IMG/VR virus record: IMGVR_UViG_3300031885_000034
Coordinates: 1-45,285 of that record
DNA from: a virus
Strand: one strand, 5' to 3'
DNA: 45,285 nucleotides
In this document: piece after piece, positions 133 through 45,285 of the stretch
How the letters are laid out: every line of letters starts with the position of its first letter
How positions within the stretch are numbered: position 1 is the stretch's first letter
The notes under the pieces: model-generated
The model's input: only the letters and a program-made list of their open reading frames with translations
Databases searched by the model: none
What the model was told of the DNA's origin: nothing
Program-made: the position numbers and the translations under genes

Positions 133-227
133 CACCTTGTACTTTCATGGAGAAATGAAAATCTAACTGATGTAGTACATAGATGCTGTAATCACCTGCT
201 TTCTTTAGGAACTCAAAGGAACAAGGT
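133..227 (+). ncRNA. Repeated structured RNA-like element, copy A
   Basis: An unassigned element that recurs at 29907-30002. It is closed by a perfect 7-bp stem, ACCTTGT (134-140) with ACAAGGT (221-227). Inside is a hairpin TTTCAT (143-148) / ATGAAA (155-160) with a GGAGAA loop. The 3' part contains a 19-base block GAACTCAAAGGAACAAGGT (209-227) that is identical in copy B. Spacing between the shared blocks is the same to within one base. One stem pair differs between copies in a compensatory way, which favours RNA structure. Strand is inferred from the location: both copies would lie at the 3' side of plus-strand genes. Function is unknown. It could also be a recombination or protein-binding site. 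Confidence 0.5.
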
Positions 228-268
228 TTTACAAGGGAGTATATCAAACATCTAGTGAACGTTAAATG

Positions 269-277
269 TTATATATA
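269..277 (+). promoter_or_regulatory. Archaeal TATA-like box
   Basis: TTATATATA in a locally AT-rich stretch matches the archaeal TATA consensus. A start about 25 bases downstream (near 300) would produce an RNA that runs through the tandem hairpins at 411-506. The box is nearly symmetric, so its direction is uncertain. Confidence 0.35.
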
Positions 278-14276: not shown

Positions 14277-15671
14277 ATGGCGACAACACTTTACTTCCGC
14301 AACACAACGGCTGCCGAGCCGAAGCCCAATGCGAAGCAGGCGGGCACCACAATCACCCAATGGCTTACGAGTACGCTGGGCGGCGGTCAGGACGGTTCAT
14401 CGACCACCTATCCTTGCGATATGTCCGTGACACCGGGAGCATCAAATGTAACCATCGGGACTTCTCTCACAGAAACGGGCGCGGCGCACTATGCTTGGGT
14501 GAAGCAGTTCGTCTCCCCAGCTCTCACGGCTCAGACGATAAGCGGGACATTCTCCCTATCTTGCGACTTCAACGAAGGGAACGGCCTTCACAATATGAAC
14601 CCGCATATCCTCATTTATGTCTGGAAGGCGGACGATTCGGGTTCGCGAGGGACGCTCTACGCGGCGGCAACATCGACTCTGGAAGCGGATACGACCAACG
14701 GGTCGCTCCAGACATTCACATTCGCGTCTTACACACTTTCGAGTCTCGCGGTGTCGGCAGGGGACCGAATAGTCGTGGAGTTGATGGCCTACGACAACAA
14801 CACCAAGACATCTGCCTACGACCATATCATCGGGCTGAACGGTGCAACATCGAGCGGGTACGAGAGCAGTATCACGTTCTCGATGAACCTAGCATGGAAC
14901 TTGGCCGCGTGCGAGGCATACGCGGCGGAGGCGATACTTGACTATGTCGCTCCTACAGAAGCATATGCCGCGGAGGCCATCCTCGACTATCTTATTCCTC
15001 CGACAGAAGTCTACGCAGCAGAAGCCATCCTTAACTATGTTGCTCCAACAGAAATCTATGCAGTTGAAGCAATTCTCGATTATCTCATCAATCCATGCGA
15101 AGCATATGCAGCCGAGGCTATTCTTGATTATGTTCCCGGCGCAGTTGCAACGGAAGTTTATGCAGCCGAAGGAATACTTGATTACGTTGCGCCCACGGAA
15201 GTTTATGCAACAGAAGCTATCCTCAGTTACGAAGTGCCTCCCTGTGAGGTTTATGCAGCTGAAACCATCCTCAGCTACGTTGCACCAACCGAGGTTTATG
15301 CTGCTGAAATCATTCTCAATTATGAAATTAACCCGTGCGAAGTCTACGCTGTTGAAGCTATTCTCAACTACACCGCACCAACCGAAGCGTATGCGACAGA
15401 AGCCATCCTTAACTATGAAGTTCCTCCCTGCGAAGTCTACGCTGCGGAAGCCATTCTGGACTACACCGTGGCCCTCGCAAGCTGTGAAGCTTACGCGGCT
15501 GAGGCCATACTCGACTACAACATATTCGCCGCCTGTGAAGCATATGCGGCAGAGGCTATTCTCGATTACGAAATCAATCCGTCTGAAGTTTACGCAGTTG
15601 AAGTCATTCTCGATTACATTGCAACAGTTGCAGCCGAGGAAGAGGTTAGCGGCGGATGGTGGTATCGGTGA
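14277..15671 (+). CDS. Fibre-like protein with a beta-sandwich head and 15 tandem repeats
   Basis: 464 residues. Residues 1-211 look like a jelly-roll type domain (TLYFRNTTAAEPKP at the start, later HILIYVWKADD and GDRIVVELMAYD). Residues 212-455 are fifteen copies of a unit with consensus [CT]E[AV]YAAEAILDY plus a 3-6 residue linker, often VAP, INP or VPP. The unit starts with Cys in some copies and Thr in others. Codons differ between copies although the protein is conserved, so the array is maintained by selection. The C-terminus ends GGWWYR. It lies among fibre and spike genes, so a virion surface appendage is likely. Confidence 0.7.
   Translation: MATTLYFRNTTAAEPKPNAKQAGTTITQWLTSTLGGGQDGSSTTYPCDMSVTPGASNVTIGTSLTETGAAHYAWVKQFVSPALTAQTISGTFSLSCDFNEGNGLHNMNPHILIYVWKADDSGSRGTLYAAATSTLEADTTNGSLQTFTFASYTLSSLAVSAGDRIVVELMAYDNNTKTSAYDHIIGLNGATSSGYESSITFSMNLAWNLAACEAYAAEAILDYVAPTEAYAAEAILDYLIPPTEVYAAEAILNYVAPTEIYAVEAILDYLINPCEAYAAEAILDYVPGAVATEVYAAEGILDYVAPTEVYATEAILSYEVPPCEVYAAETILSYVAPTEVYAAEIILNYEINPCEVYAVEAILNYTAPTEAYATEAILNYEVPPCEVYAAEAILDYTVALASCEAYAAEAILDYNIFAACEAYAAEAILDYEINPSEVYAVEVILDYIATVAAEEEVSGGWWYR
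14910..15632 (+). repeat. 15-fold coding repeat, 45-54 bases per unit
   Basis: Each unit encodes E-[AV]-Y-A-[AVT]-E-x-I-L-[DNS]-Y. Units begin with Cys or Thr (one Ser), and spacers vary in length from 3 to 6 residues. DNA identity between units is much lower than protein identity because synonymous codons vary, which argues against recent slippage. Confidence 0.85.
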
Positions 15672-28795: not shown

Positions 28796-29806
28796 ATGCG
28801 CTGGTTTGCTGAAGGGGATAAGCTAAGCGCAGTTTACGTAAACAGCCTGTTAAAAGCTCAGAGCGGAACCGGCGTGGGCATCGGAGGAGAGATTGGTCTC
28901 GTTTCTGGTGACGATGTATACGTTCACACAGGAGCAGTTCTTCGAAAGCGTGCGAGTGTGTTAGAAATCATTCCATCATCAACCAGCTACTCAGGTGGAA
29001 CAAGGGACGCGACAAACCCGAGACGGAATCTCATCATTTACGATGTCAGTGCTGGAACGATTGGGAGGGTAGATGGAACCCCTGCCGTGATACCCGAATG
29101 TCCGGCTTTAAGTGATAACGAAGACATCGTGCTGGCTGAAATCTACCTCCCTCAAACAGCTGGCGGTTCGATGGTAATTTATGATGCGCGAGCTTTCGTG
29201 CCTAAACCCTGTTGCTCAACGTTTTTCGAAGAGTATGAGAACACCGACGAAACAAACCTTTGGGAGCAGAGGAATAGCACCAATCCAGGTACGTTCACAT
29301 TCAACACGAATACCGTGTTCAAGATGATACGATATAACGGGGGCGGCGAATGGTGTGCTCATATTTCGAGGTTTGCGATGCCGTCGAGTAGTATGTACTA
29401 TAGTGCGCTCTGGTTGAGAGGATTCGTTAAGTTTCACGACAACGTGAGCAACAAGTATGTTGGCTTTTGGAAAGATACCGCTGGACAACCGTATATTGGC
29501 GGTGCAGGAGAAGCTGCAGTCTTCTTTTGGCAAAATACGGATGTGTGGTCTCTTTCCTCTATCGACGGTGGAAGTCCGACCACACAGAATGGTGGAAGCA
29601 CAGATACGAGCTGGCATAAGTTTGACCTTGTGGTTTCATCTGGTGCCAGCGGACGAGCCGGTCTTTGGGTTGATGGAGTATTTTCTGTTCAGCTTACAAG
29701 CGTCTGCCCAACAGATTTCGTCAAAAAGATATGCGTAGCGGATGAGGCAGGCGGAACAAGTGGGATGAGTTTCCAGCATCTCGAACTGCTCCACAGTTCG
29801 TTTTGA
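28796..29806 (+). CDS. Receptor-binding fibre, paralog 3
   Basis: 336 residues with GGAGGAG before the ATG. The anchor MRWFAEGDKLSAVYVNSL, LKAQSGTGVGIGGEI and LAEIYLPQTAGGSMVIYD is closest to paralog 1, while the C-terminal lectin-like half is divergent (TSWHKFDLVVSSGASG, AGLWVDGVF). Conserved anchors with divergent tips are typical of interchangeable receptor-binding proteins. Last gene of the long plus-strand block. Confidence 0.7.
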   Translation: MRWFAEGDKLSAVYVNSLLKAQSGTGVGIGGEIGLVSGDDVYVHTGAVLRKRASVLEIIPSSTSYSGGTRDATNPRRNLIIYDVSAGTIGRVDGTPAVIPECPALSDNEDIVLAEIYLPQTAGGSMVIYDARAFVPKPCCSTFFEEYENTDETNLWEQRNSTNPGTFTFNTNTVFKMIRYNGGGEWCAHISRFAMPSSSMYYSALWLRGFVKFHDNVSNKYVGFWKDTAGQPYIGGAGEAAVFFWQNTDVWSLSSIDGGSPTTQNGGSTDTSWHKFDLVVSSGASGRAGLWVDGVFSVQLTSVCPTDFVKKICVADEAGGTSGMSFQHLELLHSSF

Positions 29807-29906
29807 AGAGCAAATTCGCGAATATTAGAACAACGCCCTCGTGGATGTGCGTGTCTGAATGAAATGGTCTGCACCAAATAGCATTTCTTCGGCCAGAAAC
29901 AACGGG

Positions 29907-30002
29907 CACCTTAAGAACTCATGGAGAACATGAGACAGTCTGGTGGATGTAAATTGATACTAACCGCCCCGAGTTCTTTTGTAGAACTCAAAGGAACAAG
30001 GT
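29907..30002 (+). ncRNA. Repeated structured RNA-like element, copy B
   Basis: Counterpart of 133-227. Closing stem ACCTT (29908-29912) / AAGGT (29998-30002). Hairpin CTCATG (29918-29923) / CATGAG (29929-29934) with loop GAGAA at the same position as copy A. A second hairpin GAGTTCT (29971-29977) / AGAACTC (29983-29989) is specific to this copy. The final 19 bases are identical to copy A. It lies in the convergent gap between the plus fibre operon and the minus operon, the place where a 3' end or processed RNA would be expected. No coding potential is visible in 29807-30038. Confidence 0.5.
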
Positions 30003-30038
30003 CGTTTGTCTGAGCAAAAAGAAGGACCGGAAAGAGTT

Positions 30039-30326
30039 TCAAGGTTTCGGAGATATCTTGCCGAAGTTGGCTTCGATACCTTTCACCATGCGATACAACC
30101 CGAAGACCTCTTGAAGGATGTCCATGTCTTCAGCGTTGCTTACTTCGGTACGAGGTTCAGGAACCTCTCTAAGTGCTTTCGCACCAAGATAGAGTGCTTG
30201 TGAAAGGATGAAGCTTCCTCTCTGTGACTCTAGCATGTTCATAGCGTGGTTCTTCTTCTGCTTATCTGTCATCTGGTCCCAGTTCGCTGGTTTCATGTTT
30301 TCACCACTGTTTGTCGGAACGGACAT
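30039..30326 (-). CDS. Small protein of unknown function, last gene of the minus operon
   Basis: 95 residues. ATG with GGGAGAG upstream on the minus strand. Contains MTDKQKKNHAMNMLESQRG and a helical C-terminus. No zinc motif, unlike its operon neighbours. Overlaps the upstream gene by 34 bases. Confidence 0.55.
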   Translation of the reverse strand: MSVPTNSGENMKPANWDQMTDKQKKNHAMNMLESQRGSFILSQALYLGAKALREVPEPRTEVSNAEDMDILQEVFGLYRMVKGIEANFGKISPKP

Positions 30327-30688
30327 CTGACTCTCCCAGTTCCGAGATATTCAACGCACGGCTCTTCATCATAGCTCTGCGACTCAAATGCACACCCGAT
30401 ACATTCGCATTCTCTTGGCGGGTTGTTAACCCGGGTAGTACACGAATTTATGGCTGGCTGGCTTGGAAAATCTTTTCCATAGTCTGCTGGTGGCCAACAG
30501 TGCTTCAACAGCTCACACTTTCCGCAGATGTCGTTGTTGTATGCACCCGAATGTGAGCAGTGAGAATAGACAAAATGTCTCGTTGTGTAGAGTTCATCCT
30601 GCAGCTGCTTCACCCAGACGGTCAGGTTGTTGATGCGCTCCGTCAGACTCTGGTCTAACGCTTTGATAAGCTCCGTCTCCGGCATCAT
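30293..30688 (-). CDS. Cysteine-rich small protein
   Basis: 131 residues. A helical N-terminus (ALDQSLTERINNLTVWVKQL) is followed by many cysteines (HCSH, CGKCELLKHC, CECIGC, RCPF), probably two metal sites. ATG overlaps the upstream gene's stop. Possible zinc or iron-sulfur protein. Unknown role. Confidence 0.55.
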   Translation of the reverse strand: MMPETELIKALDQSLTERINNLTVWVKQLQDELYTTRHFVYSHCSHSGAYNNDICGKCELLKHCWPPADYGKDFPSQPAINSCTTRVNNPPRECECIGCAFESQSYDEEPCVEYLGTGRVRCPFRQTVVKT

Positions 30689-30888
30689 GCCTTCGCCTTC
30701 CTGAGCGTTCTGAACGTTCTTGGCACCATCGGGTCAACGGAGTACGGGAACGGTGCAACCATCTTCATGTGACGCTCGCAGTACCACATCCCGCTCTCAA
30801 CGCTTTGATACGTTCCTTTGTCCGGACATCTGAGGATGAATGGTGGGAAGGATGTGAACACACGACTCTGGCATCTGTGCTCAATCAT
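30685..30888 (-). CDS. Small zinc-binding protein
   Basis: 67 residues. HRCQSRVF, LRCPDKGTY and WYCERHMKM give three cysteines and several histidines. Start ATG overlaps the upstream stop. The upstream gene's last codons (GHEEKVEE) carry its ribosome binding site, GGAGAAGGTGGA. Confidence 0.55.
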   Translation of the reverse strand: MIEHRCQSRVFTSFPPFILRCPDKGTYQSVESGMWYCERHMKMVAPFPYSVDPMVPRTFRTLRKAKA

Positions 30889-31184
30889 TCTTCCACCTTC
30901 TCCTCATGACCGCTTATCCACTCGTTACATTTAGGGCAATACCAACCAAAGTCCCACTCCGCCATTGGTGGTCTAGTCGCCCCGCTCCCGCACTTTGGGC
31001 ACTTCACTACGTCATCTCCCACCGTACTAACCGCGGTGCCGGTCTTCTTGCTTTCTGTTATCACTCTCTCACTCCTGTTCAGCTCAGCTGTCTTCTCCGC
31101 CAGATATTTCTCCTGCGCGTCTTGCTCTTCATCTGTCATCAGCCGCTCCAGCAGCCCACTGTATGTCGGTCGGCGATATCCCAT
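30885..31184 (-). CDS. Zinc-ribbon protein of the CPKCGS...GHEEKV family
   Basis: 99 residues. A charged helical N-terminal half (EEQDAQEKYLAEKTAELN) and a C-terminal ribbon CPKCGSGATRPP ... WYCPKCNEW ending GHEEKVEE. The same start and end motifs occur in the plus-strand genes at 37481, 37816, 41380 and 41580, so this is a family spread over both early blocks. GGTGAG precedes the ATG. Confidence 0.65.
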   Translation of the reverse strand: MGYRRPTYSGLLERLMTDEEQDAQEKYLAEKTAELNRSERVITESKKTGTAVSTVGDDVVKCPKCGSGATRPPMAEWDFGWYCPKCNEWISGHEEKVEE

Positions 31185-31188
31185 CTAC

Positions 31189-31857
31189 TCACCTTGCGTT
31201 CTGAATCTGCTCGATGATTCCCTGCAGCTCTTCATCAACCCTTGCCTGCGTGTTCTCATCCGTCTCTGCGCTGAGGTTTTCAAGCGTTTTTCGGATGATG
31301 GCTTCCTTCTCGCCGAGGTCTTGTGGTGGAAGAACCTTCGGCTCATCGCTATCAGCTGCGGCAGCACAGGCTTCAGCATAAGCATCATCTATCCCTTCGC
31401 CTATTTGGTCCGCGAGCTCCTGCTCAATCTCTTCCCGAATGGAGGTTTCATCCACCTCAACATCGATGTCTTCAAGGTTCGATATCCAGCCGTCGAGCTC
31501 ATCTATCCGCTCTTGGAGCATCTGACCCGAACTTGAAGACTCTTGTAACTGCTCAGGCATGTTCTCTAGTTTCTCTTCCTGCTCGGTCTTTAGGTCCTCA
31601 AGCTGAGACTTGATGCTTTCAAGCTCATCAACGACGTTCGTTACATCGAGCTTGTCAATCTGTTCCTCGATGTTCATGATGGTTCGCTCATACTCGCTTC
31701 CGGTGAGCTGCTGTGGCTTCGGAGGTATGAGACTAATATATGTCGGTCCGAAGTTGAACGCCCACCAGTAGTAGCTCGAGCCGGCTGGAATTTCCTGGCC
31801 GGTGAAGCTGTCCTTGTATGCTTTCCTGCTCTTCTTCACGAAGTGTGCTTGTGTCAT
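31189..31857 (-). CDS. Acidic coiled-coil protein
   Basis: 222 residues. The N-terminus (residues 1-40: KKSRKAYKDSFTGQEIPAG, YYWWAFNFGP) resembles a small phage module with a YYWW core. The rest is a long acidic coiled coil (IDKLDVTNVVDELESIKSQL, EEIEQELADQIGEGIDD). I take the ATG at 31857 because GGTGAG lies just upstream. A GTG at 31866 is possible. Function unknown. Perhaps a nucleic-acid-mimic or scaffold-like early protein. Confidence 0.55.
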   Translation of the reverse strand: MTQAHFVKKSRKAYKDSFTGQEIPAGSSYYWWAFNFGPTYISLIPPKPQQLTGSEYERTIMNIEEQIDKLDVTNVVDELESIKSQLEDLKTEQEEKLENMPEQLQESSSSGQMLQERIDELDGWISNLEDIDVEVDETSIREEIEQELADQIGEGIDDAYAEACAAAADSDEPKVLPPQDLGEKEAIIRKTLENLSAETDENTQARVDEELQGIIEQIQNAR

Positions 31858-31858
31858 T

Positions 31859-32167
31859 TCACTCACCCCCAGCTGGTTGCGAAGCCTGGTAGCACGGAGG
31901 ATTTGCGTTTAGCTTCTCGACGAGGAAGTAGATTGCTTCAGCTCGAGCCTCATCGATGTTGCCACATCGCTTTTCCTTGTACAGGTCATCCTGGATGATG
32001 TCGCCATCCTTTACCCAGTGAAGAGCGTAGCCCCAGCTCTTCGAACCGCTAACATCCATGTTCTCACGGATGAGCTTGTTTGCATTCTTCCAGCCCAGCT
32101 TTGCTCGAAGTTCCTTTTTGGCTTCCTGAAGCATGATGTGGCAGAATGCGTCGTTGACTTCACTCAT
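31859..32167 (-). CDS. Small protein of unknown function
   Basis: 102 residues. GGAGGTG precedes the ATG, which overlaps the upstream stop. Mixed helical sequence (CHIMLQEAKKELRAKLGWKN, EARAEAIYFLVEKLN). No family recognised. Confidence 0.55.
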   Translation of the reverse strand: MSEVNDAFCHIMLQEAKKELRAKLGWKNANKLIRENMDVSGSKSWGYALHWVKDGDIIQDDLYKEKRCGNIDEARAEAIYFLVEKLNANPPCYQASQPAGGE

Positions 32168-32388
32168 GCCAACACCTCCTCAACGGGCCTCACACCAGCC
32201 AGGTCTCTGAGCTCCTTTGAAACTGCTATTCCAAGGAAGAGGTATGCATCAACGATGTTGCAGAACCCTTTATGGTCAAGCTTTGCGAACTCCCTCATGT
32301 TCTTCGCTCCGCTGGCTTCCATCGCTTCGACGCCCTTCTTGAGCTGCTCAAGAACGTCGTCTCTGCTTTTCACCAGAAACATGCTCAT
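32164..32388 (-). CDS. Small protein of unknown function
   Basis: 74 residues, mostly helical (VLEQLKKGVEAMEASGAKNM, FCNIVDAYLFLGIAVSKEL). ATG overlaps the upstream stop. Could be a small DNA-associated early protein. No evidence beyond context. Confidence 0.5.
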   Translation of the reverse strand: MSMFLVKSRDDVLEQLKKGVEAMEASGAKNMREFAKLDHKGFCNIVDAYLFLGIAVSKELRDLAGVRPVEEVLA

Positions 32389-32552
32389 GCCTTCACCTTC
32401 TTGAAGTTCGTCATCTTGCCATCTGCATCACAGCAGTCATCGCACCAGCTTGCATGTCCGATGTGTTGGCAGTCACAGCACTTGTAGCCCTTTGTTGCTT
32501 CAGCTTGCATCTTGTTCAGCTCAGCCTCCGTGAACTCATTGCCGGTGCTCAT
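32385..32552 (-). CDS. Micro zinc-ribbon protein
   Basis: 55 residues. YKCCDCQHIGHASWCDDCC gives two cysteine pairs. I choose the ATG at 32552 because GAAGGTGA is placed correctly upstream and the ATGA overlap with the preceding gene matches the operon style. A GTG at 32573 is less likely. Confidence 0.6.
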   Translation of the reverse strand: MSTGNEFTEAELNKMQAEATKGYKCCDCQHIGHASWCDDCCDADGKMTNFKKVKA

Positions 32553-33007
32553 GTCTTCACCTTCGGAACCCACTCGCCGTTCTTCAGCTCGCTCTTCTTG
32601 CTGTTGCAGTCATAGCACAAGCTCCCAGGGTTGTCGCCGCTGCATATCGTTCCGCCGCATTCCGGGCAGCGTGGGCTCGAATCATGGTCTCTGTAGAACA
32701 GCCCCTCGTGGTCAAACTGCCTGTAACCGTTGGCCCACATCTCCTGCGTTCCTTCTGTAAGGAACTTTCTCTTCTCTTCTTGTTTCTCGGCGCACCTTAC
32801 CCTCCACTTGCACGCCTGGCGGTGGATGCACCCAACATCTCCGATGCACGTTGGCTCAGGGTAACCTTCTCTCATCGGTGGCGCAAACTTCTCCGTCCAC
32901 ATGTCTGTGTGCTGCTTGCACCTTGTGCAGTCCTGACAGGCACTACCCATGTAGCCATGCTTCTCAACGTCTTCGCCGTATTGGCATCTTACACACGTTT
33001 TGTTCAT
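32549..33007 (-). CDS. Cysteine-rich protein with several metal-binding sites, first gene of the minus operon
   Basis: 152 residues. Successive clusters CVRCQYG, CQDCTRC, CIGDVGCIHRQACKW, RCPECGGTIC and CYDCNSKK indicate two or three zinc or iron-sulfur sites. The CxDVGC and CKW parts resemble iron-sulfur patterns as much as zinc ones. The start at 33007 leaves a TATA-like box (33065-33074) at the right distance. The in-frame ATG inside that box is unlikely. Confidence 0.6.
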   Translation of the reverse strand: MNKTCVRCQYGEDVEKHGYMGSACQDCTRCKQHTDMWTEKFAPPMREGYPEPTCIGDVGCIHRQACKWRVRCAEKQEEKRKFLTEGTQEMWANGYRQFDHEGLFYRDHDSSPRCPECGGTICSGDNPGSLCYDCNSKKSELKNGEWVPKVKT

Positions 33008-33064
33008 TCTTACACACACTCTCTTCGAGGTCCGGAAGCTACGCTTCCCTTCACCTCTACATAT

Positions 33065-33074
33065 CATATATATG
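33065..33074 (-). promoter_or_regulatory. TATA-like promoter of the minus operon
   Basis: CATATATATG, palindromic, about 60 bases upstream of the first operon start at 33007. Transcription from near 33037 would give a short leader. Confidence 0.4.
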
Positions 33075-33154
33075 GTTCTAGCTTAATATACTCTTGTATT
33101 GCGTTATTAAGGTACAACGATGTTTCGACATACTTTAATAGGTGGTTCGCGTTG

Positions 33155-33508
33155 TTAGTAGGGCATGTATTTATTTTCAAGCAAATCGTTTATCATCTTA
33201 ACAACAACCCTATTCATCGGATGACCATGAACTGCGCACCACTCCCGAAATCGACCCAGCTGTTCCTCACTGATGTAAACGTTCATCTGCGCTTTCATCG
33301 ATACATACTTGAAAAGAGTGCTACGTTTTTCATTCGGTTTGAGAGGATGAGAATATTCGGTATGCAGTTTTACATGACAGACGCGATGCACCAAAACCAT
33401 GATTTCTGGATGATAAGATGTGTGGTGGCGAACCGCGTCTTCGGGCACAATTGGCTGTTTACAGTATTCACACATCATCTCGATGCCTCTCAAACCTTTT
33501 CCTGACAT
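33155..33508 (-). CDS. HNH-like zinc domain fused to a ribbon-helix-helix domain
   Basis: 117 residues. The N-terminal half has CEYCKQPIVPEDAVRHHTSY, then HP and a CHVKLH end (C13, C16, H28, H29, C44, H45, H49), the metal-binding pattern of phage HNH domains. The C-terminal half (MNVYISEEQLGRFREWC, HPMNRVVVKMINDLLENK) is a CopG/Arc-type ribbon-helix-helix. The fusion may be a DNA-targeted nuclease or, if catalysis is lost, a repressor. The ATG at 33508 has GGAG at correct spacing. Own promoter at 33550. Confidence 0.65.
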   Translation of the reverse strand: MSGKGLRGIEMMCEYCKQPIVPEDAVRHHTSYHPEIMVLVHRVCHVKLHTEYSHPLKPNEKRSTLFKYVSMKAQMNVYISEEQLGRFREWCAVHGHPMNRVVVKMINDLLENKYMPY

Positions 33509-33549
33509 TTTCAACTCCGCCTGTTTCACTGTCTATATACTGATGGTAA

Positions 33550-33559
33550 GTTATATAAC
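33550..33559 (-). promoter_or_regulatory. TATA-like promoter of the HNH/RHH gene
   Basis: GTTATATAAC, a perfect palindrome. A start about 25 bases downstream on the minus strand (near 33524) leaves a 15-base leader holding the GGAG site. A second box, CTATATAC, lies at 33532-33539. Confidence 0.45.
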
Positions 33560-33844
33560 CTTGTATTTGGTTAGTAAGAAGTGCACGAATAAATGCGGGT
33601 TATTAGTAAGGTTCACCATCGTGTGCTATATACAGCTACACCTCGGAACGTACGTACTACTACTACCACTATAACGAAATATGTTATTGTATGGTATATA
33701 CCCACGATTTGATACACGGCATCTTTTTGAAACCCTTGATACCGGGTGCCTGCTGTGAGAAGCAGAGATTCGTATATACTCGTATTGAAAACACTCCTAA
33801 CATCCTTCACAAACACGCGTGAAGTTATTAAACCAATACCAAGG
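33560..33844. other. Intergenic control region between divergent blocks
   Basis: No convincing gene. A minus-strand open frame across 33613-33987 has low-complexity valine-rich sequence, no ribosome binding site and overlaps the promoter at 33845, so I leave it out. Several TATATAC-type boxes occur (near 33625, 33696 and 33772), as well as a short inverted repeat CTTCAC/GTGAAG near 33805-33823. It probably holds overlapping promoters for the divergent early blocks. Confidence 0.4.
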
Positions 33845-33852
33845 TTTATATT
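33845..33852 (+). promoter_or_regulatory. TATA-like promoter of the structured leader RNA
   Basis: TTTATATT with an upstream AACCAATACCAAGG stretch fits an archaeal BRE/TATA pair. Predicted start is a G around 33874-33876. Confidence 0.5.
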
Positions 33853-33874
33853 GTTGTACCTGTTATGGGTAATG

Positions 33875-34290
33875 GGAGTAGGTGTGTAACCACTTGCTTC
33901 AGATGCAACTCGAAAGGAAAAGCGGGATACAACACCGTAACCTTCGGCAGAGATAGAACGGAGCCGGAAAGTAACTGATGTGGTCAACCGAGCAATCGGC
34001 CCGGGTGTGTGACCGTAGGGTGAAGAGCTGATGATTCAGCTTAGCGGCTGAACTGGACGCGATACGGTTTCGTTCGACATCCACCGGCAGTCGGTGCGCG
34101 CCCCGTTCCGGATTTCGAGCTGCGTTTCGCCCAACGGTAACCAAAGGGACGAACTGCACGCTGGTCATCACGGTGCAACTCCGTGCATGCCCACCATGGG
34201 CGTGTGAGGTAAGACTATCCGAACCAGAGCAACCGTAACAGTCACCGTCCTGGTTGCAACCGCTGGGCGAATCAGAGTCATAGGAGTGAG
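33875..34290 (+). ncRNA. Candidate structured leader RNA, about 400 nt
   Basis: No open frame with a ribosome binding site covers this GC-rich stretch. Clear stems in order: GGTCA/TGACC (33982-33986 with 34010-34014) enclosing CCGA-GCAA-TCGG (33988-33999, a GNRA tetraloop), AGCTGA-TGAT-TCAGCT (34026-34041), CACCG/CGGTG (34082-34096), CACGG/CCGTG (34169-34185), GCCCA-CCA-TGGGC (34189-34201) and GCAACC/GGTTGC (34229-34257). A TATA-like box lies upstream and the SprT-like gene starts 3 bases after the end. It could be an independent RNA, a long regulatory leader or a mobile ribozyme. I could not match it to RNase P, SRP RNA, or group I or II introns. Confidence 0.5.
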
Positions 34291-34293
34291 AGA

Positions 34294-35019
34294 GTGAGCA
34301 AAAATTTAGAAGGCATGAACCGAACGGAGAGCAAGCTGTACCGCTTGCAGCTCGAAGTGCTTAAAGAGGCACGCTGGAACAAGATGCTTCAGAGGGTTGA
34401 CTTTGGTAAGGAGCTCAACCCTTATGAACCGGTGCCGATAAAGCTCTTTCGAAGCAAAGCACATCTAGCAATAGCCTGGAGCGAAAGAATTGAGTTTCAG
34501 AAAGACTATGCCAAGCGTTCGGATTATACTGACCTGCTCCACACGATGAGGCATGAGATGATTCATACGTTGCTCGGGCAGAATCAAATCAGTGATTCGC
34601 ATGGTGCGCTGTTTAAGACATGTTGCTCGATAGTTGGACTCCATAATCCGAATTCGAAGGAAGCGGAATGGAAGTACAAGTACGTCTGCACCGTATGTGG
34701 CTGGTGGCAGAAACAAACGACGAAGCAAGAAAGCGTTCGTTGCGGTCACTGCTTTAAGCGGATGGTAACACAAACCGACTATGACAAGCTTAAGCAGATG
34801 GTAAAGTTGAACTGCAAGGCGTTCCCAGTTAAGCTTGAAGACTACATCGTGATGAAGGTTGAAGTTGATAACGGAAGCTGGATGAAGCTCAAGAGCGGAA
34901 AAGACGGAGGGCCAACTACTCTCGTACCTCCCCCAGAAGTACATGACGCGTCGGTTATACACACACCCTCCGTCTCCGCAATTCCATCCGTTAGTAAAAG
35001 CATGGAGGGAAATACATGA
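34294..35019 (+). CDS. SprT-like zinc metalloprotease domain protein
   Basis: 241 residues. RHEMIHTLLGQ gives the HExxH site (H87, E88, H91) and H103 in SDSHGALFK is the likely third ligand, as in SprT/Spartan. A C-terminal zinc ribbon follows: C132/C135 and C150/C153. SprT-family proteins cleave DNA-protein crosslinks or chromatin proteins in cells. In viruses the substrate is unknown. GTG start with GGAGTGA upstream. First gene of the right plus block, directly behind the structured RNA. Confidence 0.85.
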   Translation: MSKNLEGMNRTESKLYRLQLEVLKEARWNKMLQRVDFGKELNPYEPVPIKLFRSKAHLAIAWSERIEFQKDYAKRSDYTDLLHTMRHEMIHTLLGQNQISDSHGALFKTCCSIVGLHNPNSKEAEWKYKYVCTVCGWWQKQTTKQESVRCGHCFKRMVTQTDYDKLKQMVKLNCKAFPVKLEDYIVMKVEVDNGSWMKLKSGKDGGPTTLVPPPEVHDASVIHTPSVSAIPSVSKSMEGNT

Positions 35020-37295: not shown

Positions 37296-37484
37296 ATGAG
37301 CGATGATATAGAGAAAGACCTCTTCAAAGCCCTGTCCAAAGCAAAGCGAGCGTTTGAGGAGTTCGTAGAGAAGGATGGATGGGACTTAGATTTGGAGTTA
37401 TCGTTCTCCGTTCGGGAGCTCGACTGTGAAGGAAGAACACTGCGGAGAATTACCTTAGACAACGAGGAGAAGGTGAACCGATGA
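37296..37484 (+). CDS. Small acidic protein
   Basis: 62 residues (LFKALSKAKRAFEEFVEKDG, LDLELSFSVRELDCEG) ending NEEKVNR. Its last codons contain GGAGAAGGTGAA, which is the ribosome binding site of the next gene. Function unknown. Confidence 0.55.
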   Translation: MSDDIEKDLFKALSKAKRAFEEFVEKDGWDLDLELSFSVRELDCEGRTLRRITLDNEEKVNR

Positions 37485-41583: not shown

Positions 41584-41699
41584 ACTGCCCCAAGTGCGGT
41601 CGTTTTATGAAGTATGGGGTCGAAACTTTTCCAGACGGCGCAACATTGGACCGCTTCTGGTTCTGCAAATGCGGTCACGAGGAGAAGGTGAAGCAATGA
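41580..41699 (+). CDS. 39-residue micro zinc ribbon
   Basis: GTG start overlapping the previous stop as GTGA. MNCPKCGRFMKYG, then FWFCKCGHEEKVKQ. It is one ribbon with the family ending, encoding GGAGAAGGTGA just before the next ATG. Confidence 0.65.
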   Translation: MNCPKCGRFMKYGVETFPDGATLDRFWFCKCGHEEKVKQ

Positions 41700-42046
41700 C
41701 AGTTGAAGTCATCCGACGCAGCGGTCAATACTGGGGTAAGATAGTCGGAGGTAGAGGGGTTGGTAAAGGCTACAAAGGTTTAATCAACGGAAAGACCTAT
41801 GTTGCGTGGAGAAAGCTTGACCAAGAATGCGGTAAGTTTAACGGCTTCGGAATCCAGTATGACCTCTTTCGAGAACTGAAGGAACGCGATGTTACAACGA
41901 TAATTATTGTCACACCAGATAATGAATACACTTCAAGCTTGTCTCATTGGGAACTCAAAGGAACAATAGCTACGATATCTTCTCATTGGGGTGAGCAGAT
42001 ATTCCTTTCGACCGGAATGCAGGAAAAGGTGATTAACCGTGGCTGA
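41696..42046 (+). CDS. Small beta-rich protein
   Basis: 116 residues. VEVIRRSGQYWGKIVGGRG and KTYVAWRKLDQECGK begin it. ATG overlaps the micro-ribbon stop, with the binding site supplied by that gene. A 17-base match to the repeated RNA element occurs at 41951-41966 but encodes WELKGT in frame. Function unknown. Confidence 0.55.
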   Translation: MTVEVIRRSGQYWGKIVGGRGVGKGYKGLINGKTYVAWRKLDQECGKFNGFGIQYDLFRELKERDVTTIIIVTPDNEYTSSLSHWELKGTIATISSHWGEQIFLSTGMQEKVINRG

Positions 42047-44972: not shown

Positions 44973-45285
44973 ATGACAGAACAGTTTAAAGCACTCGGAA
45001 AGAAGGTGAGAAGGCCTTCGAAAAAGTCGTTGGAGACGTTTGCCAAGCCTGCAGACGTGACAAGAGTGACGATGGAAAGCGAAGAAGTAACAAGCCTCTG
45101 TCCTGTAACCGGACAGCCGGATTGGGATAAGGTGAGCATTCACTACAGTCCGAACAAGCTGTGCTTGGAATCGAAAAGCTTGAAACTTTACCTTTGGAGT
45201 TTCCGACAGAAGGGTACATTCTGCGAGAATTTGGCTAACTCAATTCTCGGAGACTTGCTCGACGTTCTTGACCCACTCGACTGCA
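44973..45285 (+). CDS. queF: QueF-like preQ0 reductase, truncated by the window edge
   Basis: 104 residues visible. SLCPVTGQPDW gives the catalytic Cys (C43) and Asp (D50) at the seven-residue spacing of QueF. CLESKSLKLYLWSFR matches the NADPH-site signature ESKS. QueF reduces 7-cyano-7-deazaguanine (preQ0) to preQ1 in cells. Viruses with QueF can place preQ1-type bases in their DNA. The GGAG of the preceding stop region serves as the binding site. The NADPH motif argues against the archaeosine amidinotransferase QueF-L. The 3' end is outside the window. Confidence 0.9.
   Translation, partial: MTEQFKALGKKVRRPSKKSLETFAKPADVTRVTMESEEVTSLCPVTGQPDWDKVSIHYSPNKLCLESKSLKLYLWSFRQKGTFCENLANSILGDLLDVLDPLDC

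Follow-up and report, generated by a model that had tools for sequence, protein, structure and literature searches.

Introduction

The put sites of phage HK022 occur as two similar structured copies per genome, lie near the starts of early operons and act on the bacterial polymerase. Few, if any, structured cis-acting RNAs have been described for archaeal tailed viruses, and a literature search for such RNAs in these viruses returned nothing relevant. How archaeal tailed viruses end or protect their transcripts has likewise been little studied. In archaea generally, U4 tracts serve as a termination signal bound by the nuclease aCPSF1, and a hairpin is not strictly required (PMC8716108).

Here we describe element A, a sequence of ~95 nt (~105 nt with an outer helix) present in two copies on the same (+) strand, at 133-227 and 29907-30002, of a viral DNA of 45,285 nt (IMG/VR record IMGVR_UViG_3300031885_000034, positions 1-45,285). 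This whole stretch is referred to below as the window.

Results

The window as part of an archaeal tailed virus genome

A first-pass annotation, made from the letters of the window, had taken the DNA to be viral, and protein comparisons bore this out. The terminase was closest (42%) to those of psiM100 and psiM2 of Methanothermobacter, and the portal and capsid proteins matched archaeal viruses only, including vir519 of Methanofastidiosa. Judged by these three proteins, the window derives from an archaeal tailed virus. Searches of IMG/VR with the portal and capsid proteins found no relative.

The open reading frames fall into rightward structural genes (962-29806), leftward genes (30039-34171) and rightward early genes, which begin at 34294 and reach the contig's right end. 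The window has just two long intergenic regions, 1-961 and 29807-30038, and each holds one copy of element A. Since the right end of the contig cuts a QueF-family gene (44973-45285), the contig is a fragment. This gene adjoins one for a calcineurin-like phosphoesterase, and vir519 has a tgt gene; the QueF-family gene together with its phosphoesterase neighbour suggests 7-deazaguanine DNA modification.

Two further features of the gene content were observed. The gene at 14908-15622, encoding a tail or virion protein, contains many copies of a YAAEAILDY repeat and has a 95% identical piece in locus L078. Because the terminases of L078 and the window are only 43% identical, this gene appears to have been exchanged recently between the two viruses. 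Positions 37296-37474 share 94% nucleotide identity over 179 nt with positions 3640-3818 of L076, and many short zinc-ribbon genes (CPKCG) are repeated at 30.9, 37.5, 37.8 and 41.4-41.6 kb. The early region is a shuffled one, common to viruses that probably have one host.

Two copies of one repeat

Both copies of element A were found where the annotation had put them (Table 1), and the three sequence blocks that it described as common to them were all present. CACCTT begins at 133 and 29907. TCATGGAGAA begins at 145 and 29919, a start-to-start offset from CACCTT of 12 in both copies, not 13 as annotated, whereas the offsets of 76 and 77 were right for the 19-mer GAACTCAAAGGAACAAGGT, which begins at 209 and 29984 and is exact in both. 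In all, 59/93 aligned positions were identical between the copies.

When all exact direct repeats of the window were listed, those of the element A family were the only ones of at least 16 nt outside paralogous genes; no other non-coding stretch matched elsewhere in the window over more than 13 nt. Matches to the 19-mer with at most 3 mismatches numbered 3, against 0.03 in the shuffled window.

Table 1. Coordinates of element A, its helices and associated features in the window
Feature	Position	Strand	Details
Copy 1 (CACCTT ... AAGGT)	133-227	+	Between end of rightward gene block and conserved late-type promoter
Copy 1 with outer helix	128-230	+	AAA 128-130 / TTT 228-230; 3-nt 5′ bulge CCC 131-133
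P1, copy 1	134-227	+	ACCTT 134-138 / AAGGT 223-227; G139-C222 possible extension
P2, copy 1	143-160	+	TTTCAT 143-148 / ATGAAA 155-160; loop GGAGAA
P3, copy 1	168-194	+	TGAT 168-171 / ATCA 191-194; inner GTA/TGC hairpin 175-186
P4, copy 1	200-221	+	TTTCTTT 200-206 / AAAGGAA 215-221; GGAACTC in loop
19-mer GAACTCAAAGGAACAAGGT, copy 1	209-227	+	Exact repeat
TTTT at 3′ edge of copy 1	227-230	+	Sole + strand T4 run in 1-961
Copy 2	29907-30002	+	Convergent gap, 101 nt past last rightward structural gene
Copy 2 with outer helix	29901-30006	+	AACG 29901-29904 / CGTT 30003-30006; bulge GGC 29905-29907
P2, copy 2	29918-29934	+	CTCATG / CATGAG; loop GAGAA
P3, copy 2	29942-29968	+	GGTGG / CCGCC; inner GTA/TAC hairpin
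P4, copy 2	29973-29997	+	GTTCTTTTG 29973-29981 / CAAAGGAAC 29989-29997
TTTT within P4 of copy 2	29977-29980	+	Sole + strand T4 run in gap 29807-30038
19-mer GAACTCAAAGGAACAAGGT, copy 2	29984-30002	+	Exact repeat
Partial third copy, 3′ word only (GGAACTCAAAGGAACAA)	41950-41966	+	Exact 17 nt, in frame in CDS 41696-42046

The two copies share a fold kept by compensatory change

One four-helix fold (P1-P4), with a 3-nt 5′ bulge leading to an outer helix, fitted both copies. The loop of P2 is of the GGAGAA type, P3 is variable and the loop of P4 carries GAACTC; the closing stem ACCTT/AAGGT and the GGAGAA-type hairpin recognized earlier are present in both copies. In copy 2 the four-helix fold is about the minimum-energy fold, and the sequence exceeds shuffled ones in stability (z about -2.1 to -2.4). 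In copy 1 it lies 1.1 kcal/mol above the minimum, with a stability that is not unusual (z -0.4).

A hand-adjusted alignment of the copies contained seven two-sided compensatory pairs and three one-sided changes. The T-A to C-G change on which the annotation had relied (pair 144-159 against 29918-29934, in P2) is real, but it is one of seven and not the only one: two of the six others lie in the outer helix beyond the 3-nt bulge and four in the middle hairpin. Paired cells made up 93.7% of this alignment, and 35-50% when the register was slid by 1-3 columns.

Since the hand-adjusted alignment had been made with the structure in view, we wrote a Sankoff-type procedure that folds and aligns the two sequences jointly, and realigned every shuffled control. 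With the borders of the annotation, none of 2000 realigned controls reached the observed shared-fold structural score when all columns were shuffled; when variable positions alone were shuffled and conserved columns kept, 2/2000 and 1/2000 did so. The same shuffle test was weaker with loosely chosen flanks (6/1000 and 37/1000). As a genome control, 2885 windows drawn from this same genome were scored, among which none (copy 1) and one (copy 2) reached the structural score of the pair. The reverse strand was far weaker (14/500 and 47/500 without the outer helix, 99/500 and 190/500 with it), which points to a + strand molecule. RNAalifold run on a plain MAFFT alignment of the two copies gave no signal, because a 1-nt shift in P2 throws the stems out of register. 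The shared fold thus has good statistical support, though from only two sequences, too few for the power of an R-scape-type test, being kept by compensatory change beyond what shuffled controls attain, and the case for a strand-specific common fold with compensation is stronger than originally argued.

A third copy of the 3′ word lies in a gene

The 3′ word of element A recurs once more, a copy absent from the first-pass annotation. It reads ELKGT in frame within its gene, for whose protein no homologue was detected, and no element fold was found at 41950-41966. The probability of such a coincidence was estimated from base composition at roughly 0.2-2%, and a chance origin is unlikely. A comparable coincidence, of 21 nt shared with the third site, did arise in an unrelated gene of L044 (IMG/VR) when a large collection was searched; this candidate was rejected, being a DnaB-type helicase gene read in another frame.

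The third word is the best argument for a role at the level of DNA or sequence. Element A could be a DNA site with the 19-mer as its key part, in which GGAAC is repeated at one helical turn. It would then be bound by a viral protein of replication, packaging or regulation, or serve as an origin in the form of a single-strand hairpin. The 3′ word is indeed the most conserved part of the element and recurs in a gene without an RNA fold. Copy 1 moreover has the terminase genes and a promoter close by, whereas no promoter was found near copy 2 in our scan. Binding to duplex DNA, however, needs neither compensatory changes, nor G-T pairs on one strand, nor a fold signal confined to the + strand. 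Counting all its variants jointly, we consider a DNA-level site rather unlikely.

Coding potential also bears on whether the copies are the now functionless leftover of a duplicated gene piece or of a small mobile element. An open frame that ends in SFVELKGTRSFV and a stop can be read through copy 2, and the third copy encodes HWELKGTI. The frame, however, is not kept between copies 1 and 2, because in copy 1 the word is immediately preceded by a stop codon and the copies differ in length by 1 nt. Terminal inverted repeats of the kind expected of a MITE are lacking, complementary ends extending over 5 bp only; the sequences flanking copy 1 are unlike those flanking copy 2, with no sign of target duplication. 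Pairing is kept at variable positions, as decay would not do. A functionless remnant therefore appears quite improbable.

Searches for relatives

With two copies in a single genome as its only known occurrences, element A is an orphan. Across the whole window, none of 4227 Rfam families matched above curated thresholds and ARAGORN found no tRNA or tmRNA gene. Permissive Rfam scans of both loci returned only chance-like fragments of miRNAs, U3 or plastid UTRs, far under threshold, and the ideas of a CRISPR repeat, an attC site or a ribozyme found no Rfam match for element A. BLAST against phages and plasmids gave nothing notable, a composite pattern had no match in GTDB genomes, and exact and relaxed patterns hit only unrelated coding sequences in IMG/VR. 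One pattern match there, in L003, was rejected as a homologue since it falls in a FolE2-like gene.

Two covariance models run over the window recovered the two copies and no third folded copy. Searching related viral contigs with covariance models, the check that the annotation had proposed, gave no homologue in 1.22 Mb of related loci and 34 whole records. Element A was found in none of 90 related loci searched and in none of the 80 loci found with a terminase profile. Nor was a copy detectable in L076, L078 and L132-L135, which have a tail gene in common with the window and, in one case, early genes as well. A structural match of copy 1 to an intergenic region of L076 was good relative to shuffles; it was rejected, as many unrelated windows of L076 equal it. 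The searched collections yielded no close relative of the virus, so the absence of homologues says little. The earlier description of a non-coding family used twice is apt for the two folded copies, but no member beyond them was found.

Both copies follow rightward gene blocks

Copy 2 starts 101 nt past the point where the structural operon ends (29806), at the stop codon of its last + strand gene. Copy 1 starts 77 nt past the stop, ending at 56, of a short frame that is open at the contig start and has fewer than 20 codons within the contig. A BRE/TATA-like promoter was identified at 261-275 (+), 34 nt downstream of copy 1, and a second promoter-like site at 645; they score 22 and 21 of 24. 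The scan placed no such site upstream of either copy. It does miss some promoters, the divergent gap 34172-34294 having yielded none.

Positions 238-278 lie ahead of the terminase genes and have 76% identity to positions 5859-5899 of L076, which share AGTATnTCAAACAT ... TAAATGnTnTATATAC with them and likewise stand just upstream of terminase genes; the shared segment is a candidate late promoter for the group. The early genes of L076, a related archaeal virus, are followed by one intergenic region with the matching promoter and then by terminase genes. This gene order supports the succession inferred for the window virus, in which the early operon leads to the copy 1 region.

The promoter sites bear on two further readings of the element. 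The copies could be genes that arose by duplication and then diverged, each specifying a small RNA that acts in trans, perhaps as a decoy or antisense RNA directed against host functions. Element A would suit such a gene as a structured unit of its own whose GGAGAA and GAACTC loops are conserved, and the two same-strand copies diverge in a compensatory manner outside these loops. No Rfam family matched, however, and the copies showed no promoter of their own, the scan, which is not exhaustive, having found two strong sites nearby. We regard a trans-acting RNA as unlikely. Alternatively, element A might form part of a longer RNA that controls the late operon, copy 1 lying in a leader transcribed from a promoter farther upstream. 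Copy 1 does precede a structured 700-nt non-coding region ahead of the terminase genes. Yet the strong promoters (261, 645) are downstream of copy 1, and a leader role is ruled out for copy 2 by its position opposite the ends of leftward genes. A late-operon leader is thus very unlikely.

The region downstream of copy 1 has structures of its own. Between the two promoter-like sites, 408-515 contains two strong hairpins, each beginning GATGTTACGTCC (408 and 460), whose stems, CCCATCCC/GGGATGGG and CCTAATCCCCTCC/GGAGGGGATTAGG, are rich in G+C and which have GATGT-like repeats just before them; it is a possible origin, packaging or regulatory region. Inverted repeats are present at 680-961 (e.g., AATCAAATCTCCGATAT ... 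ATATCGGATT and CACCCGGTGAGG ... CCTCACCGGG), a probable long leader ahead of the terminase genes.

T4 runs were located relative to the fold. In copy 1 the tract comes after P1, and in copy 2 it forms part of P4; by chance, a length of 961 nt should contain one such tract. Gene layout, promoter sites and T4 tracts, taken together, put each copy at the end of a rightward transcription unit, in the case of copy 1 by way of a genome closure that we infer. The annotation had located the copies at the left end and in the convergent gap. The latter holds for copy 2, but the left end is merely the end of a fragment whose right end cuts QueF, and it makes more sense to say that the copies come after each rightward gene block.

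Discussion

Element A is probably a functional + strand RNA structure. As to what it does, we tentatively favour a cis-acting 3′-end RNA element over a trans-acting RNA, a DNA site or a decayed duplication, the first two of these being serious rivals. As a structured RNA read from the + strand, of which this archaeal tailed virus has two copies, it would act in cis at the 3′ ends of two rightward transcription units. For copy 2 this unit would be the structural (late) operon ending at 29806. For copy 1 it would be the rightward early operon leaving the right end of the contig, which would continue into the left end, presuming a closed or permuted genome. The element may set or protect the transcript end through binding of a host or viral protein; alternatively, it may offer a U-tract to the nuclease of archaeal termination. 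That the copies are transcribed, that the genome is closed and that they have a 3′-end role are here deduced from sequence and gene layout.

Consistent with a 3′-end role are the common fold, the positions after rightward blocks, the lack of promoter-like sites upstream in the scan and the T4 runs touching the copies. Against it stand the differing positions of these runs, the ordinary stability of copy 1, the shortness of the frame ending at 56 and the fact that a hairpin is not strictly needed for archaeal termination. Conservation of the loop sequences, too, hints at a function more specific than that of an ordinary 3′ end. Conceivably, though we find it rather doubtful in this detailed form, a virus-encoded RNA placed once at each rightward-unit end has conserved GGAGAA and GAACTC loops that attract a protein, and mRNA 3′ ends are formed or protected in this way. 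If true, this would be a previously unknown, dedicated viral 3′-end RNA signal in archaea. With a supported fold occurring twice at matching positions, element A offers a concrete target for 3′-end mapping and structure probing, and its covariance model can be used for searching once relatives are sequenced.

Among known systems, the archaeal U-tract terminators recognized by aCPSF1 resemble element A in lying downstream of operons and in the U4 tract in or at the element, but they need no conserved fold or 19-nt word, and the copies of element A differ in the position of T4 (PMC8716108). A tRNA or tRNA-like structure has in common with it a closing helix with three hairpins, the last of which, on the 3′ side, stacks directly on that helix, whereas the loops and helix lengths of element A do not fit. 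The orphan structured RNA motifs of metagenomic viruses likewise combine conserved loops and covarying stems with no known function; element A differs from them in being known from two copies in one genome only, with no Rfam match. The HK022 put sites, with which we compare it by description only, lie at early-operon starts, in contrast to the gene-block ends occupied by element A in an archaeal virus; like element A, they are two structured copies in one viral genome, set in the same orientation relative to transcription.
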